Source: Afifella marina DSM 2698
GTDB lineage: Bacteria; Pseudomonadota; Alphaproteobacteria; Rhizobiales; Afifellaceae
Assembly (NCBI RefSeq): GCF_900102695.1
Contig: NZ_FMVW01000002.1
Span: 434,001-498,000 of the forward strand
Reading direction: 5' to 3'
Length of the DNA: 64,000 nucleotides
The position numbers and the translations under genes were made by a program. This document shows positions 5,041 to 12,371 of this stretch, piece after piece. A model generated the notes under the pieces. The model made no database searches. It had not been told where the DNA came from and saw nothing but the letters and a program-made list of their open reading frames with translations. Each line of letters opens with the position of its first letter. The first letter of the stretch is position 1.

Positions 5041-5090
5041 TTCCGTCAGCCGCCTAGTCAATGCCGCGGAACGAGAGCGGGGTTTGCGGC

Positions 5091-5699
5091 ATGTCACCTA
5101 TTGAGAGCGCTGTTGCCGGCTTTTCGCTGGGGCTGGGCCTCATCTTGGCGATCGGTGCGCAGAATGCCTTTGTCTTGCGGCAGGGGCTGGTCGCCCGCCA
5201 CGTCTTCGCCGTCTGCCTCGTCTGCGCGCTCTCCGATGCGGTTCTGATCTCGGCCGGTGTTGCCGGTGCGTCGGGTCTGATGAAGGCGGTGCCGTGGATC
5301 GAGCCGTTGATGCGCTATGGCGGCGCGTCGTTTCTCATTGCCTATGCGCTGAAGAGTTTTCATGCCGCCCTCAAACCGGGGCCTGGCTTGCAGCCGCTCG
5401 ATGCCGATGGAGGGAGCCTCGGCGCGGCGATTGCCACCTGTCTCGCCTTCACCTGGCTCAACCCGCATGTCTATCTCGATACGCTCGTGCTCCTCGGTTC
5501 GGTGTCCTCGCAATATGAAGGAGAGCGACCGGCCTTCGCTTTGGGCGCGGTGACTGCGTCCTTTTCATTCTTCTTCGCGCTCGGTTATGGGGCGCGGCTT
5601 CTGCGGCCGGTCTTTGCCGATCCGCGCGCCTGGCGGGTGCTGGATCTGGCGATCGGCATCATCATGGGCCTGATCGCGGAGAGCCTGCTGCGCGGATGA
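5091..5699 (+). CDS. argO: LysE/ArgO-family basic amino acid exporter
   Basis: A 202-residue inner-membrane exporter of the LysE/ArgO family, expected to export arginine and possibly lysine. It opens with GFSLGLGLILAIGAQNAFVLRQGL, the most conserved segment of the family, has about six hydrophobic helices, and contains TWLNPHVYLDTLVLLGS. The ATG at 5091 gives the usual N-terminus; an upstream in-frame ATG at 5061 would add ten residues unlike the family. Divergent from argP, whose product is its expected activator. The gene ends just before a strong hairpin shared with the oncoming pio operon. Confidence 0.9.
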   Translation: MSPIESAVAGFSLGLGLILAIGAQNAFVLRQGLVARHVFAVCLVCALSDAVLISAGVAGASGLMKAVPWIEPLMRYGGASFLIAYALKSFHAALKPGPGLQPLDADGGSLGAAIATCLAFTWLNPHVYLDTLVLLGSVSSQYEGERPAFALGAVTASFSFFFALGYGARLLRPVFADPRAWRVLDLAIGIIMGLIAESLLRG

Positions 5700-5742: not shown

Positions 5743-5765
5743 ATGCGGGACGTGACGTCCCGCAT
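5743..5765 (-). terminator. Perfect 10-bp stem between argO and pioC
   Basis: ATGCGGGACG and CGTCCCGCAT form a perfect stem with a three-base loop (TGA or TCA). Read on the minus strand the stem runs into TTTTC, so it fits a Rho-independent terminator for the pio operon. It may also stop argO transcripts coming the other way. Confidence 0.7.
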
Positions 5766-5828: not shown

Positions 5829-6107
5829 CTACTTCTTGGCGTAGAGGCGGCACCAGCCCTTCGGTGAGATCGTCCCCTGCACGACCTTACACGCGTCCGG
5901 CGCCTGGAAGTGCCGGCAATTGTCGCATTCCTGCCGCCCCTTCGGCGTCGTCTGGTAGCCGGCGATGGCCTGCTTGGCCTTGTTGGCGATTTGCGCATTC
6001 GCCGAACCCGTTCCGACCAGCGCCAGAGAGCCGGCTGCGATCGCGCAGGCCCCCAGAATCTCGCGCCGGGACATGCCGCTGTTCGATGTCTTCGAATCGT
6101 CTTTCAT
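5829..6107 (-). CDS. pioC: High-potential iron-sulfur protein, PioC-like
   Basis: A 92-residue precursor of a periplasmic HiPIP. Residues 1-38 are a Tat signal with SRREIL at 13-18 and a cleavage region ending SANA. The mature part carries four cysteines (61, 64, 73, 86) in the HiPIP pattern CDNC...C...GWC, which ligate one high-potential 4Fe-4S cluster. In phototrophic Fe(II) oxidisers PioC is thought to carry electrons from the outer-membrane complex to the reaction centre. It is the last gene of the operon, 73 bp behind pioB, with a good AAGGAGGG ribosome-binding site. Assignment as pioC rests on the neighbours pioA and pioB. Confidence 0.9.
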   Translation of the reverse strand: MKDDSKTSNSGMSRREILGACAIAAGSLALVGTGSANAQIANKAKQAIAGYQTTPKGRQECDNCRHFQAPDACKVVQGTISPKGWCRLYAKK

Positions 6108-6180
6108 TTTGGGTTTCCCTCCTTGGTTTTTCTTTAAATGCGCCGCTGATGTGTCGCTGCGACAGAACCGGGGCGTTTCC

Positions 6181-8499
6181 TCACCAGCGGTAGACCAGTG
6201 AGGCCATGACGGCGTGGACGTTGTAGTTGGTGTCCCAGAAGCCCATGGCGTAGCTCGTGGTGACGCCGTCCTCGATCAAATGCTGATAGGGCGTGTCGAG
6301 CTCGTCCTGCCAGTTGTCGACGAAGTTGCGTTCCCAGGAATATTTCAGGGTCAAAGTCAGGTCGCCGTCGAGACCAAGAATACCTCCGGCTTCCGGGTGG
6401 TAATTCAGCGCCGCGTCGAAGCGATTGTAGTTGGTCACCATGTCCGGGAAGGGCAGGCAGTTGGTGTCTCCCGGGCAAAGAGGCGTGGCGATCGGCGTGC
6501 GCGAGCTTGCGGTTGCGGTCCATTTGGAGACGCCGCGGGCGAAGCTGTCATAGAATTCGAGATCGAGAACGCCCGGGATGATCTCGATGTTGGCGCCGGC
6601 GACAAGCGTGTGCACCTGTTCGGTCATCTTGCTGTCCCAGCCGCCGGTGACGACGTTGGCGCCGCCGCCGGTGATGCTGGCGGCGACCATGTCACGGTCG
6701 AAGTCCTCGTAGACATAGGCGGCCATCAGATTGATTCCGGGGGCCGGCGAGAATGCGACCTCAAGGCCGCCGTCCCAGCTGTTGTCCTTCAAGAGCCCGT
6801 ATTCCGGGATGGCGGGATCGGTCAGGTAATCGTCGAAGCGCAGGCCGAAGGACGGCGTGATGACGAGATTTTCGAGCGCTTCGTATTCCAGCGAGACCTT
6901 GGCCTTGTGGCGGTCCCGATCGGCCATGTCGTATTTGCGCACGCCCGGATCGGCATTGGTGCCGAGCGGGTCGCTCACCATGGCATCGAGCACCGGGCCG
7001 AGATCGTAGCTGTCGTAGCGGCGCTGCGAATACTGGTAGCTGGAGCGAAGCTGCGCGCGATCGGTGATGCGGGCGTCGAGCGTGATCTTGCCCAGATATT
7101 CGTCCGTCACGTTGACGGAGCGCCTGTCGCGGTCCCAGCGCTCCCAGCCGATTTCGCTGCCGAGCGTGATGCGGTTGGTCGCGAGCCAGCTCACCTCGGC
7201 TGAGGCGTTTTGCTTGGTGTATTGATAGGCGAGGGCTCTCAACCCGCCGGTCGCCGGTGTGGCCGTCGTTGAATCGCCCATAATGTATTGATCGATCAGC
7301 CATTCCGGCGTGCGATTGTCGAGGTCGTAATAGCGGTAGCGCAGCGTCGTGGAGACATCCTCTGCGATCTGCGTGCTGATCTTGTTGTTGATGAGGAGTG
7401 TGTTGATCTTCGCCCTGGCATCCGTGGTCGGCAACGAGAGCGCCGGGGCGTTCGGGTTGATCGTATACGGGATGAGCGTGTCGCTCTGCTCCATCGTCGT
7501 ATAGGAGACCGTGCCCATGTAGCGGCTCTTCCAGGGCAGATCGATGCCGGTCGTAACGCCGAGCGAATAGGCCTCGTTGTCCGGAGCAAGGCTGACGCGG
7601 CCGAATTGCGGGAAGGCGGTACCCGGCACCTGGTAGTACGGATTCTGGAATGTGAAGGAATCGTACTTGTTCTCGTAAGTCGAGGCGTGACCCGTCACAG
7701 AGACGTTGAAGCGGCCCCAAGGAGTCTTGGAGAAATACCCGCCGGTTGCCTTGAGGTTTTGCGTCACGTCGTCGACCGGACGGGGAACATCGACGCGGTG
7801 CACTTCGCCCGCGCCGAAGCCGTTCATCAGGATGCCGGCGGGCTGCGTTCCTTCGCGGTGGTCGTTGAGGTAGCTCGCCTCGAACTCCCAATTCGGGCTC
7901 GGCGTGTAGGTCTGGTCATAATGGATGCGGCGGCGGTCGATGCCGATGTCGATCGGATGGACGGCACCCGAAATCGCCGCGTCGTATTGTGCCGGACTTG
8001 GCGGGCTTTCCGGAAACGACACGTCGGTCGACAGGAAGTCGGTGCCCACGCCTTGCCAGATGCTCTGTGCGGTCGTCGAGTAGAGATGCGGGATCTCGTC
8101 CCACATGAAGGTGCCGTCAAGCAGCCCGGTCCGCGACCAGTCGAAGATATAGCGACCGTTGTTCTGGCCGATGTTTTCGGCACGAACCTCGCCGGAATAG
8201 AGGCCATCGCCCGATTGCCAGCCGAACATCAGCTTTTCGAGAAGCAGGCCTGAAGGGACGTCGCCATATTCCTCGAACTTGGCGGAGCTGTACCTTTGCG
8301 GCGACAGGATGCTCGGCGTGTCCCAGACAGAAGCGTGGTCGGGCGGTTCGTCGATGAAGACGCGGGCGCCCACTTCGATCTCGCCCCAGGTGACCGCTTC
8401 GGTGTCTTTCTCGTCCTGTGCCTCGGTTGCCTGCGGCAGTGCCACGCCACCGGCGAGGAGCGCCATCGTGGCCAGCGTCAATCGGCGTTGAACCTTCAT
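6181..8499 (-). CDS. pioB: PioB/MtrB-family outer-membrane beta-barrel
   Basis: A 772-residue outer-membrane porin of the MtrB/PioB family, which sheathes a decaheme cytochrome so that electrons can cross the outer membrane. There is a cleavable signal (MKVQRRLTLATMALLAGGVALPQATEA), then a long series of alternating amphipathic strands rich in Tyr and Trp, ending VMASLVYRW with the terminal aromatic residue typical of barrel proteins. The N-terminal CXXC found in metal-reducer MtrB proteins is absent, as in PioB; a CPGDTNC pair lies late in a probable loop. The ATG at 8499 has a GGAGGAAAC site; the frame is open far upstream, but those residues are a shadow of pioA. Confidence 0.92.
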   Translation of the reverse strand: MKVQRRLTLATMALLAGGVALPQATEAQDEKDTEAVTWGEIEVGARVFIDEPPDHASVWDTPSILSPQRYSSAKFEEYGDVPSGLLLEKLMFGWQSGDGLYSGEVRAENIGQNNGRYIFDWSRTGLLDGTFMWDEIPHLYSTTAQSIWQGVGTDFLSTDVSFPESPPSPAQYDAAISGAVHPIDIGIDRRRIHYDQTYTPSPNWEFEASYLNDHREGTQPAGILMNGFGAGEVHRVDVPRPVDDVTQNLKATGGYFSKTPWGRFNVSVTGHASTYENKYDSFTFQNPYYQVPGTAFPQFGRVSLAPDNEAYSLGVTTGIDLPWKSRYMGTVSYTTMEQSDTLIPYTINPNAPALSLPTTDARAKINTLLINNKISTQIAEDVSTTLRYRYYDLDNRTPEWLIDQYIMGDSTTATPATGGLRALAYQYTKQNASAEVSWLATNRITLGSEIGWERWDRDRRSVNVTDEYLGKITLDARITDRAQLRSSYQYSQRRYDSYDLGPVLDAMVSDPLGTNADPGVRKYDMADRDRHKAKVSLEYEALENLVITPSFGLRFDDYLTDPAIPEYGLLKDNSWDGGLEVAFSPAPGINLMAAYVYEDFDRDMVAASITGGGANVVTGGWDSKMTEQVHTLVAGANIEIIPGVLDLEFYDSFARGVSKWTATASSRTPIATPLCPGDTNCLPFPDMVTNYNRFDAALNYHPEAGGILGLDGDLTLTLKYSWERNFVDNWQDELDTPYQHLIEDGVTTSYAMGFWDTNYNVHAVMASLVYRW

Positions 8500-8630
8500 C
8501 GTTTCCTCCCCCCAGAGAAATGTCTTCAGGCCTTGGCGTGTGAGCGAAGCTCCTTGCGTGTCGTCGCTTGGTGGGTGGCTGCGGGGCGATGCCTGTGAAC
8601 CTGCACGCGCCCCGCGCCTCCCCCCTATGG

Positions 8631-9716
8631 CTAGCGGTGCCAGCGCCTCCCTGATGGGCTGTTGGACCCGTGGATGTTGGTGTGGCAGTTCTGGCAGGCG
8701 CTGTTGACCATGTAGCGGTTGGAGCTGATGCCGAGCGCTGGGTTGCCGAGATGGCGACCCGGCGTGTGGCAGCGCTGGCACAGCCGCGGCCGCATCACCG
8801 TCAGAAGATTGCGGTTCATGGAGCCGTGCGGTTCGTGGCAGTTGAGACAGTTCTCGCGCACCGGCGGATGCTCGAAGAGGAACGGCCCGCGCTTGTCGGC
8901 ATGACAGGTGTAGCAGACGTCGTTGACGGTCGCTTCCTTGAGCATCTTGTCGTGCGGACCGCCGTGCGGGTTGTGGCAGCTGCCGCAATCCATCTTGCCC
9001 TCGCGCATCGGCATATGGGCGGTGCGCACCGAGTGGGCGCGCCGGTCCTTGTGGCACTGGAAACAGGTGTCCATGACATTGCCCTTGGCCATCTGCATGC
9101 GAGGTGAGGTCCGCCGCATCACCGTGTGGCAGTTGGTGCAGGCGACGCCGCGGGTTTGATGGACGGAGCCGCGCCAGTAGGTCCGGTCGCCCTTTTCATG
9201 GCAGGTCAGGCAGATGCCGTTGATGTCGGCCGCCGAGGACCGCGGGTCGTTCGCACGGAAGGAACGAATGACGCCGGTGCCGATGTCGTTGCGGCCGCCG
9301 CCGGCGTTGACGTGCGAGGAGCCGGGTCCGTGGCAGCTCTCGCATTCCATCTTGCCGCCGACGGTGTGATGGCCGCTCTCCAGGAGGCGGCCCATCACCG
9401 TCAGCTTGAACTCGTCGAAGGAGCCCGCATGGCAAAGGCGGCACGGCTCGGAGCCGACATAATGGGCGCCAACCGCGGCACCGCTCGCCTTGACCTGCAG
9501 CACGTCCTGGCGCGGCAGGTCCTTCAGCGTGTCTTCTCGGGAGAGAAGATCCATGGCCATCTGGGCGGTGTCTGCCGTCTGCGTTCTGGCAGAATCGGGG
9601 ACGAATACCGCTGCGGCCAGCAAGACGATCGGAATCAGGAAAATAGCAATCGCCGGCCGCCGACCTGCCGATAAGGCAATAGAGATCGCGCGGCCTACAC
9701 CGCTGGCAAGTATCAT
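8631..9716 (-). CDS. pioA: Decaheme c-type cytochrome, PioA/MtrA family
   Basis: A 361-residue periplasmic decaheme cytochrome. Ten CXXCH motifs are visible at about residues 92, 125, 169, 193, 218, 244, 268, 290, 313 and 341. The spacing and motifs such as MECESCHGPGSSHV and CHEPHGSMNRNLL are typical of MtrA/PioA/DmsE proteins. An N-terminal hydrophobic segment (residues 22-40) should direct export. In this family the cytochrome plugs into the PioB/MtrB barrel and carries electrons across the outer membrane. It is clearly shorter than the long-N-terminus PioA described in Rhodopseudomonas palustris and close to MtrA length. First gene of the operon, with GAGGGGGG upstream of the ATG. Confidence 0.93.
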   Translation of the reverse strand: MILASGVGRAISIALSAGRRPAIAIFLIPIVLLAAAVFVPDSARTQTADTAQMAMDLLSREDTLKDLPRQDVLQVKASGAAVGAHYVGSEPCRLCHAGSFDEFKLTVMGRLLESGHHTVGGKMECESCHGPGSSHVNAGGGRNDIGTGVIRSFRANDPRSSAADINGICLTCHEKGDRTYWRGSVHQTRGVACTNCHTVMRRTSPRMQMAKGNVMDTCFQCHKDRRAHSVRTAHMPMREGKMDCGSCHNPHGGPHDKMLKEATVNDVCYTCHADKRGPFLFEHPPVRENCLNCHEPHGSMNRNLLTVMRPRLCQRCHTPGRHLGNPALGISSNRYMVNSACQNCHTNIHGSNSPSGRRWHR

Positions 9717-9805: not shown

Positions 9806-9869
9806 CGTCCGCGAGCGTTACCGGATACGATTGCCGTTTCATTGCAGGTTAAGGGGCGCAAATTGGAAT

Positions 9870-9907
9870 TGTCAATTATGACATTAGAAAATTTTGTATT
9901 TTCGCAA
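9870..9907. promoter_or_regulatory. Palindrome and FNR/FixK-like site upstream of pioA
   Basis: TGTCAATTATGACA at 9870-9883 has perfect outer arms TGTCA/TGACA. Just beyond, TTGTATTTTCGCAA (9894-9907) matches the minimal FNR/FixK half-site spacing TTG-N8-CAA but not the full TTGAT-N4-ATCAA consensus. FixK is known to control pioABC in Rhodopseudomonas palustris, so the second site is a reasonable but weak candidate. Confidence 0.35.
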
Positions 9908-10384: not shown

Positions 10385-12271
10385 TTAGGCTGCGTCAGGT
10401 TCGCGGCCGAGCTCCTCCAGCATGGCACCAAGCTCGATCCAGCGCTCTTCCAGGCGTTCCAGCATGGCCGCCTTTTCACCGCGCTTCTTGGCGAGTGTCG
10501 CGGCCTTTTCGGGCATGGCGCGATGCAGCGCGGGTGATGCGAGTTCCTCGTCCAGGGCTTCGATCTCGTTGGTGAAGACGTCGATCAGCCGTTCGCATTC
10601 CTTGAGCTTCTGGCGCAACGGTGCCGAGGCACGGCGTTTGTCTGCCTGCTTCTGGCGGCCGGCTGCCGGCGCTGCGGGGGCCTTCTCCGCTGCCGGTTTC
10701 TTTGCCGGACCCTCGAGCACTTCGCGGCGATAGTCTTCGATGTCGCCGTCATAAGGGGCGACGGTGCCTTTCGATGTCAGCCAGAGCCTGTCGACAGAAG
10801 CTTCGATCAGATGGCGGTCGTGGCTGATCAGGATGACGGCGCCGGAATAATCGTTGAGGGCGTGGATGAGCGCCTCGCGGCTGTCGACGTCGAGATGGTT
10901 CGTCGGTTCGTCGAGGATGAGGAGATGCGGCTTGCCCAGAGTGGCGAGGCCCATCAACAGGCGCGCCTTTTCACCGCCGGAGAGGTCCTTCGCCTTGGTG
11001 TCCATCTTCTGCGTGGCGAGCCCCATCTGCGCGACACGGGCGCGGAGCTGCGGCTCCGAAAGATCGGGGAGGCGGGCGCGGATGTGCTCCACCGCCGACT
11101 GGCCGGGGATGAGTTCGTCGAGCTGGTGCTGCGCGAAAAAGCCGATCTTGAGCTTGTTGGAGCGCTTGAAGATTCCGGTCTCGGCCTCGAGCTGGCCGGA
11201 AATCAACTTGGCAAAGGTCGATTTGCCATTGCCGTTGGCTCCAAGGAGGGCGATGCGATCATCGTCGTCGATCCTGAGATTGAGGTCCGTCAGGATCGGA
11301 TGGCCCGGCTCGTAGCCGACCGAAACGCCTTCGAGCTGCAGGATCGGTGGGGCGGCACGCTTTTCCGGATCCGGGAAGCGGAAGGGTAGGACCGTCTCGT
11401 CGGCGATCGTGGAGACCGGCTGCAGCTTGGCGAGGGCCTTCAGGCGCGACTGGGCCTGGCGCGCTTTCGACGCCTTGGCACGGAAGCGGTCGACGAAAGC
11501 CTCCATGTGCTTGCGCTGCGCTTCCTGCTTGTCCTTGAGCTTGGCCTGCAGGGCCTGCCGCTCGGCGCGCTGACGCTCAAAGCTGTCATAGCCGCCGGAA
11601 TAGGTGGTGAGCTTTTGCTCCGACAGATGCACGATCATGCGCACGGCGTTGTTCAGGAGATCGCGGTCGTGCGAAATCAGGATCGCCGAATGCCGGTAGC
11701 GGGCGATGTAGCGCTCCAGCCACAACGAGCCTTCAAGATCGAGATAGTTCGTCGGTTCGTCGAGGAGGAGAAGATCGGGCTCGGTGAACAGAACCGCGGC
11801 GAGGGCGACGCGCATGCGCCAGCCGCCGGAAAATTCCGAGCAGGGACGGTTCTGCGCCTCTTCGTCGAAGCCGAGACCTTTCAGGATGCGGGCTGCGCGG
11901 GCCTCCGCCTCATGGGCGCCGATTTCGGCAAGGCGGGTATGGATCTCGCCGATGCGTCCGCCTTCCTTGGCGGTCTCGGTCTCGGCCAGAAGCCGGCTGC
12001 GCTCTTCGTCGGCGGCAAGCACGGTCTCGATCAGCGTCTCCGGGCCGCCCGGAGCTTCCTGCAGCACGCGGCCGATGCGGGCGCGCTTTGGCAGGATGAT
12101 TTCGCCCTCGTCGGGGGCGATGTCGCCGGCGATGGCACGAAACAGCGTGGTCTTGCCGGCGCCATTCTTGCCGACGAAGCCCACCTTCGAGCCCGCGGGA
12201 AGGTTGAGGCTTGCCTTGTCGATGAGGGTGCGCCCGGCAATGCGGAGCGTGATGTTTGAAAGCTGCAGCAT
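10385..12271 (-). CDS. ABC-F family ATPase (YheS/Uup-like)
   Basis: A 628-residue protein with two ABC ATPase domains and no membrane segments, the ABC-F layout; these proteins act on ribosomes. Domain 1 has GKNGAGKTTLF, a signature SGGWRMR and LLLDEPTNYLD; domain 2 has GANGNGKSTF, LSGGEKARL and LILDEPTNHLD. The linker between them is long, basic and helical. The C-terminal Lys/Glu-rich coiled coil (from about residue 545) and the length fit YheS better than EttA. The ATG at 12271 (MLQLSNITLRIAGRTL) is preferred over an upstream extension to 12349. Exact substrate state of the ribosome cannot be read from sequence. Confidence 0.88.
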   Translation of the reverse strand: MLQLSNITLRIAGRTLIDKASLNLPAGSKVGFVGKNGAGKTTLFRAIAGDIAPDEGEIILPKRARIGRVLQEAPGGPETLIETVLAADEERSRLLAETETAKEGGRIGEIHTRLAEIGAHEAEARAARILKGLGFDEEAQNRPCSEFSGGWRMRVALAAVLFTEPDLLLLDEPTNYLDLEGSLWLERYIARYRHSAILISHDRDLLNNAVRMIVHLSEQKLTTYSGGYDSFERQRAERQALQAKLKDKQEAQRKHMEAFVDRFRAKASKARQAQSRLKALAKLQPVSTIADETVLPFRFPDPEKRAAPPILQLEGVSVGYEPGHPILTDLNLRIDDDDRIALLGANGNGKSTFAKLISGQLEAETGIFKRSNKLKIGFFAQHQLDELIPGQSAVEHIRARLPDLSEPQLRARVAQMGLATQKMDTKAKDLSGGEKARLLMGLATLGKPHLLILDEPTNHLDVDSREALIHALNDYSGAVILISHDRHLIEASVDRLWLTSKGTVAPYDGDIEDYRREVLEGPAKKPAAEKAPAAPAAGRQKQADKRRASAPLRQKLKECERLIDVFTNEIEALDEELASPALHRAMPEKAATLAKKRGEKAAMLERLEERWIELGAMLEELGREPDAA

Positions 12272-12371
12272 GGCGAGGGCATAGAGGCTCAGCCGGGCGG
12301 AAGGCAAGCGCTTCGAATCACGCGCGCTCTTGGCGCTTGCAATGCGCATGAGCGGCGGCTACCGCCGTTGC

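Follow-up and report, generated by a model that had tools for sequence, protein, structure and literature searches.

A predicted pioABC electron-uptake operon in Afifella marina encoding a PioA without the N-terminal extension

In Rhodopseudomonas palustris TIE-1, as excerpts of the published work describe it, PioA and PioB form a conduit and PioC reduces the photosynthetic reaction centre, a step that PioA can also carry out directly (PMC6831781, PMC10304953). PioA of this strain is a protein of 540 aa with a signal peptide and a 200-aa region, cut at Ala243 after secretion, and a mutant devoid of the 200-aa region keeps Fe(II) oxidation with a reduced amount of holo-PioA (PMC6831781). The same excerpts call the N-terminal extension conserved in phototroph PioAs, though not in sequence, and define PioA-like decahemes by a large N-terminal extension and an internal hydrophobic region before the first heme (Gupta 2019; PMC6831781); according to an excerpt of another source, it seldom occurs outside Rhodopseudomonas (PMC10654088). 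Here we describe a pioABC-type operon in a stretch of 64,000 nucleotides of Afifella marina DSM 2698 (contig NZ_FMVW01000002.1, positions 434,001 to 498,000; hereafter the window, to which all coordinates refer), whose PioA has 361 aa and lacks the extension. Very probably, judging by homology and gene context, this locus serves an Afifella-type purple bacterium as a functional operon for electron uptake. The pioABC system itself is already known; what is new is its occurrence in a genus for which no earlier report was found, together with the missing PioA extension. The genus is listed among marine Rhizobiales in the part of PMC7824335 available, and the literature matches listed contained no report that joins Afifella with iron oxidation, pio genes, decahemes or electron uptake, supplementary trees and tables lying outside this search.

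The operon, its proteins and their relatives

The locus has in common with that of R. palustris TIE-1 the gene order, a decaheme PioA, a porin of the PioB family, a PioC that is a high-potential iron-sulfur protein (HiPIP) and the reaction-centre context. The genes pioA (8631..9716), pioB (6181..8499) and pioC (5829..6107) are adjacent on the minus strand and run in one direction as an intact operon, with gaps of 131 bp between pioA and pioB and 73 bp between pioB and pioC. A first-pass annotation, made from the letters and their open frames, had described a complete pioABC-type operon at this place, with a cytochrome of ten CXXCH motifs, an MtrB/PioB-type barrel and a HiPIP exported by the twin-arginine translocation (Tat) pathway; its order, strand and coordinates proved exact, and each of the three assignments was borne out by the protein analyses.

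PioA is a periplasmic decaheme cytochrome c in which a signal peptide is followed by the heme domain, with a Pfam Paired_CXXCH_1 match and ten CXXCH heme sites of conserved spacing, the first heme cysteine being residue 92. Its best match in the PDB is chain 6r2q_A (E 7.9e-57), whose file labels the molecule 'Cystathionine beta-synthase'; entry 6R2Q is given as MtrAB of Shewanella baltica in the excerpt of PMC10654088. PioB, an outer-membrane porin of the MtrB/PioB family (772 aa, ATG start at 8499), was assigned by sequence profile only, scoring 393.6 bits with Pfam MtrB_PioB and 402.7 bits with TIGR03509 (cut-off 240). A longer GTG frame of pioB, reaching to 9057, was rejected because it overlaps pioA and is not needed. 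PioC (92 aa) shows the twin-arginine motif SRREIL, and R. palustris PioC (6xyv) is its only PDB match at E <= 0.001 (E 6e-13). The Pfam HIPIP score is barely over the cut-off (22.2 bits against 22) and that of the Iro model is below it (69.3 against 100); the four ligand cysteines are invariant in all 16 aligned PioCs, and the profile search of the genome (3.96 Mb, 24 contigs, 99.73% complete) gave no other HiPIP match.

The operon is conserved within the genus. All five genomes, including that of the window, contain pioA, and pioB and pioC were found in each of them; the closest named relatives, with one genome taken per species, are Afifella sp. IM 167 at 79% and A. pfennigii at 82% over residues 73–361, and the genes flanking the operon are common to these two and the window genome. 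The ratio of nonsynonymous to synonymous substitutions (dN/dS), calculated against two close genomes, is 0.049 and 0.046 for pioA, 0.067 and 0.065 for pioB, and 0.21 and 0.155 for pioC, and selection on the three genes is purifying. Given the presence of pioA in all five genomes and these ratios (0.046–0.21), the operon is not a chance find.

A tree of the PioA heme domain was built from 59 of 77 decaheme rows, after leaving out 16 rows in which overlapping loci repeat a gene already included, one truncated row with 8 hemes (L082) and one row with a large insert (L014). The five Afifella PioAs form one group (support 100/99) inside a clade of 16 rows (100/99), the 11 others belonging to Rhodopseudomonas, Rhodomicrobium, Blastochloris, Rhodovulum sp. 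PH10 and a metagenome-assembled genome (MAG) of Bradyrhizobium. The reference loci, which do not include a named MtoA or MtoB, carry names that are our reading of their gene content: MtrCAB-like for those with one or two further decahemes plus a barrel (L086, L091 and L092) and DmsEF-like for those with nearby Tat-type oxidoreductase-like proteins (L087–L090). Both kinds lie across a 99/96 split from the PioA clade, the three MtrCAB-like rows without forming a single group. Grouping inside the MtrAB or DmsEF clades, which had been named as grounds for abandoning the pio assignment, is thus not what the tree gives. The Shewanella-type MtrCAB/DmsEF systems and MtoAB also combine a decaheme cytochrome with an MtrB-family porin, but next to the window operon neither a surface decaheme nor dimethyl sulfoxide (DMSO) reductase subunits were found, and it falls on a separate side of the tree from MtrCAB/DmsEF. 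Rhodomicrobium (R. vannielii and R. udaipurense), in contrast, has its PioABC in the same clade as the window, and its loci also contain pioC. Decaheme-barrel pairs from Elusimicrobia MAGs and a Nitrospira MAG (L016, L017 and L018, the last one a long branch) were likewise seen on the PioA side and not with Mtr/Dms. A plasmid search for named decahemes returned 3 records, which were not used.

The missing N-terminal extension of PioA

A closer inspection of the region before the first heme showed the main difference from R. palustris TIE-1. Measured from the longest possible start in 20 PioAs, this region comprises 91, 91, 91, 100 and 81 residues in the five Afifella proteins, and 195–334 residues in 13 others, namely the 11 remaining members of the pioABC clade and two rows outside it that lack pioC, BradyD3 and XanthoMAG (counting from the first ATG lowers the minimum of this range to 191); in the more distant G250 and G162 it comprises 73 and 124. 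In the set examined the extension is therefore present in 11 of 11 non-Afifella pioABC PioAs, including the four Rhodomicrobium proteins, and in none of the five from Afifella, all of which lack the large extension of the Gupta 2019 definition. A longer pioA frame hiding an extension was considered and rejected: the open frames of the five genus genomes reach at most 365, 365, 365, 370 and 351 aa and leave no in-frame room for it. In comparison with IM 167, dN is 0.49 over the first 85 codons of pioA and 0.038 over the heme domain; the short N-terminus thus evolves faster and is weakly constrained.

The 13 extensions have 5–14 histidines each, against one in each Afifella N-terminus, and ten of them contain at least one xPHG/A repeat. 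A short motif, AL-x-[DES]-[YF]-[AV] (hereafter ALxDYA), occurs in nine of the 13, compared with a mean of 0.09 and a maximum of 3 in shuffled sequences. A hidden Markov model (HMM) of the motif, built from seven extensions and compared with 50 shuffles per sequence, scored 26.5 bits on BradyD3 and 15.9 bits on XanthoMAG, with no shuffle as high for either. The same model gave -0.4 to 0.2 bits on the five Afifella N-termini (13–30 of 50 shuffles as high) and weak scores of 0.2 and 2.8 bits on G250 and G162 (2 of 50 shuffles as high each); of the four Rhodomicrobium-clade rows, two were equalled by 5 and 14 of 50 shuffles and two yielded no score.

The position of the motif-bearing outgroups bears on whether the extension was gained or lost. 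A 24-row tree restricted to the last eight heme sites, made to place the BradyD3 PioA, gives the 16-row pioABC clade a support of 98/96, and BradyD3 and then XanthoMAG lie just outside it (91/90 and 89/87). Since both carry the motif, the extension probably predates the pioABC clade and was lost in the Afifella lineage, and Rhodomicrobium probably kept its length but not the motif. We lean slightly towards regarding Afifella as a natural, genus-wide analogue of the TIE-1 mutant without the 200-aa region, in which an ancestral propeptide would have been lost and photoferrotrophic uptake would proceed with neither propeptide processing nor FixK boxes of the TIE-1 kind. In this reconstruction the ancestral propeptide would be older than the clade and would have contained histidines and the ALxDYA motif.

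The alternative that Afifella PioA never had an extension, which then arose in other lineages and possibly more than once, is less probable. It agrees with the PioA tree, where Afifella is sister to all extended PioAs (85/44), with the short pre-heme regions and weak motif scores of the further-out G250 and G162, and with the different N-terminal region (177 pre-heme residues) of two distant decahemes, L119 and L120. It is at odds with the motif in the nearest outgroups, and also with A. pfennigii PioA, which keeps a APGDPLGRYYVGS stretch resembling the one found before the first heme in extended PioAs.

Several observations weaken the case for a loss in Afifella. The evidence for loss over gain comes from two MAG outgroups on long branches and from a short motif modelled on seven sequences, and this motif has no match in the four Rhodomicrobium-clade extensions, so that the extensions are maybe not all one thing. 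A concatenated PioA+PioB tree, of 19 rows because L008 has no pioB in its stretch and with BradyD3 represented by PioB only, recovers a pioABC clade of 15 rows at 100/99 but leaves the branch order inside it unsettled: the best tree joins Afifella to Rhodomicrobium (55/94), the extended rows as one clade obtain p 0.18 in the approximately unbiased (AU) test, and the tree carried a warning that long branches may meet in it, XanthoMAG joining other long rows. The choice between gain and loss thus depends on the outgroups.

If the loss is true, the propeptide would be a dispensable device for maturation or supply control and not a part of the conduit, and the extension would be no marker of photoferrotrophs. 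The distribution seen here refines two printed statements, as excerpted, one calling the extension conserved among PioAs of phototrophs (PMC6831781) and the other calling it rare outside Rhodopseudomonas (PMC10654088). Because Afifella lacks the extension naturally, its role can be tested directly.

Other features of PioA and its homologs were noted in passing. The idea that PioB length goes with the PioA extension was dropped, the groups differing by short insert runs only (9, 4, 4 and 5 columns). The 855-aa PioA homolog of the Bradyrhizobium MAG D3_Bin_4 (L014, 1342–3909) has 14 CXXCH motifs, with class-I cytochrome c repeats after the second heme; its genome contains a reaction centre and its locus is devoid of pioC, whose role the insert might take over. 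The decaheme-barrel pairs L119 and L120, from alphaproteobacteria, have a monoheme cytochrome gene just upstream, and their N-terminal regions have a MERIHGGKVD stretch in common and lack the ALxDYA motif.

Phototrophic context and direction of electron flow

The earlier reading had made phototrophy depend on genes outside the window, and these exist. Two reaction-centre subunit genes were found on another contig, adjoining the gene of a four-heme PufC of 454 aa (434.9 bits), which places pufLMC in the genome. The RuBisCO large chain is present (460.4 bits), and its stretch also has the small chain, phosphoribulokinase and an AAA protein that we read, by its position, as CbbX-like. Reaction centre and CO2 fixation genes, the gene criterion for photoferrotrophs, therefore occur in the same genome, and the case in which the operon would stand in a genome without photosynthesis context does not apply. 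Afifella, a genus of purple bacteria, thus becomes a candidate for photoferrotrophy.

By homology to R. palustris TIE-1, PioA is expected to sit in the PioB porin and to bring electrons through the outer membrane from Fe(II) outside the cell or from a solid surface. Either PioC or PioA itself would then pass the electrons through the periplasm to the reaction centre with its tetraheme PufC subunit, and light energy would support CO2 fixation by RuBisCO. PioA would be made as a signal peptide plus heme domain and would need only signal-peptide cleavage for maturation. By the same analogy, Afifella is predicted to use Fe(II) or an electrode as electron source.

An outward conduit, that is a PioAB/MtrAB-like electron sink reducing Fe(III), DMSO or other external acceptors, appears improbable. 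It finds some backing in the score of PioA with NCBIfam TIGR03508, a family named after DmsE (238.2 bits, cut-off 192.2), but that name is not decisive, since the Mtr-like and Dms-like decahemes of genome G616 pass the same cut-off. Against it speak the separation of PioA from the DmsE-like and MtrCAB-like references in the tree, the HiPIP in the operon and the phototrophic and autotrophic gene context, as well as the Pfam-matched neighbours between 384 and 16574, which include neither a DMSO reductase nor another multiheme gene. Moreover, pioA is the sole Paired_CXXCH locus in the genome, in a search of that family only, which does not exclude other multiheme families. A relic or recent acquisition with no working role, as the missing extension and FixK boxes could suggest, is very hard to reconcile with an operon present in all five genus genomes, a pioA dN/dS of about 0.05 against close genomes, ten intact heme sites in PioA, four retained cysteines in PioC, and flanking genes common to three genomes.

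The description of the gene set as rare is fair: in a sample of 397 genomes of the order, PioB/MtrB exceeds the cut-off in 12 and a reaction centre is found in 75, with both in 10. Reaction centres thus occur in 10 of the 12 PioB-positive genomes against 65 of the 385 others (Fisher, 1.6e-6). The association weakens to p 0.0025 without the genus of the window and is not significant when counted by genus (0.12), so that shared descent explains much of it. A class-wide search gave 5 of 385 genomes over the cut-off, one being that of the window and the others having only distant pairs. Of 12 distinct genomes asked, eight showed reaction-centre matches, the remaining four being G250, G162 and those of L007 and L015; pioC was found in L007 and not in the stretches examined of G250, G162, L014 and L015.

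Part of this evidence counts against functional, light-driven uptake in Afifella. PioAB-like pairs do occur with neither a reaction centre nor pioC (G250, G162), and the pioABC locus of L007 belongs to a Bradyrhizobium MAG, of completeness not given, that has no reaction-centre match. The dN/dS values are higher against IM 167 and A. pfennigii (0.19–0.37). Among the PioC contact residues mapped in R. palustris, six of nine for PioA, three of which are ligand cysteines, and two of five for the reaction centre are kept, in a comparison where R. palustris XCP stood in for TIE-1 and the numbering was fitted by us. The literature searched yielded no data on Fe(II), a cathode or gene expression in Afifella.

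The neighbours of the G250 and G162 pairs were also noted. In G250, a genome of the same family as the window, an 8-kb contig (L098) contains a PioAB pair (PioA 51% identical) and, after it, a TPR protein of the CcmH/CycH type known from cytochrome maturation, with no pioC in the contig and no reaction-centre match. Near the pioAB pair of G162 there is a protein with 9 hemes (L099, 1002–2996) that matches NapC-like, MtrC-like and cytochrome b561 families, possibly a quinone link.

Regulation, non-coding elements and neighbourhood

The upstream region of pioA also differs from that of R. palustris TIE-1, whose pio genes have two FixK boxes according to the excerpt of PMC3050613. No FixK box (TTGA-N6-TCAA, up to 1 mismatch) lies within 500 bp upstream of the window pioA, nor does a relaxed pattern within 1 kb. 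A single box, with 1 mismatch, was seen in IM 167 and none in A. pfennigii. Exact boxes are present in all four Rhodopseudomonas loci and absent from five others, those of Blastochloris, PH10, BradyMAG and the two named Rhodomicrobium. We infer that pio control in Afifella does not act through FixK boxes of the TIE-1 kind. An exact FixK box was also seen in an unrelated gammaproteobacterial locus (L022).

A promoter-like element, TTGACA...CCTTAACCT, is placed upstream of pioA (9841..9875, minus strand). As TTGACA...CCTTA it is common to IM 167, and only its TTGACA part to A. pfennigii; the promoter scan did not list it. A terminator-like stem of 10 pairs with a T-rich tail lies 3' of pioC (5743..5765, minus strand) and is the longest of four such sites in the stretch, the other three having 5 pairs; shuffled sequences contain a mean of 4.0. 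Directly 3' of the pioA stop, in the gap between pioA and pioB, a GC stem-loop was found (8581..8615, minus strand; z -2.25, with 5 of 200 shuffles equally stable), the place of which is kept in other Afifella genomes with a partly changed sequence. A GC stem of 8–12 pairs, 9–27 nt 3' of the pioA stop and of a sequence that differs by genus, was observed in the window and in L003, L004, L005, L007, L008 and L009, where 0–5 of 100 mononucleotide shuffles gave an equally good stem; the corresponding counts are 18 for G002, 36 for Blastochloris, 63 for XanthoMAG and 12–74 for Rhodopseudomonas. The stem may tune the supply of PioA against that of PioB.

The operon is flanked by a LysE-family transporter gene (5061–5699, plus strand) and, 5' of pioA beyond an intergenic stretch, by an ATPase gene (10385–12349) that we read from its Pfam domains as ABC-F type. 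Six other neighbouring frames had no Pfam match, several of them lying opposite a matched gene. The further Pfam-matched neighbours comprise a LysR regulator, CYTH and CHAD proteins, a leucyl-aminopeptidase-type gene, an arginase, an arginine-deiminase-like gene, the ribosomal proteins S9 and L13 and a thioesterase.

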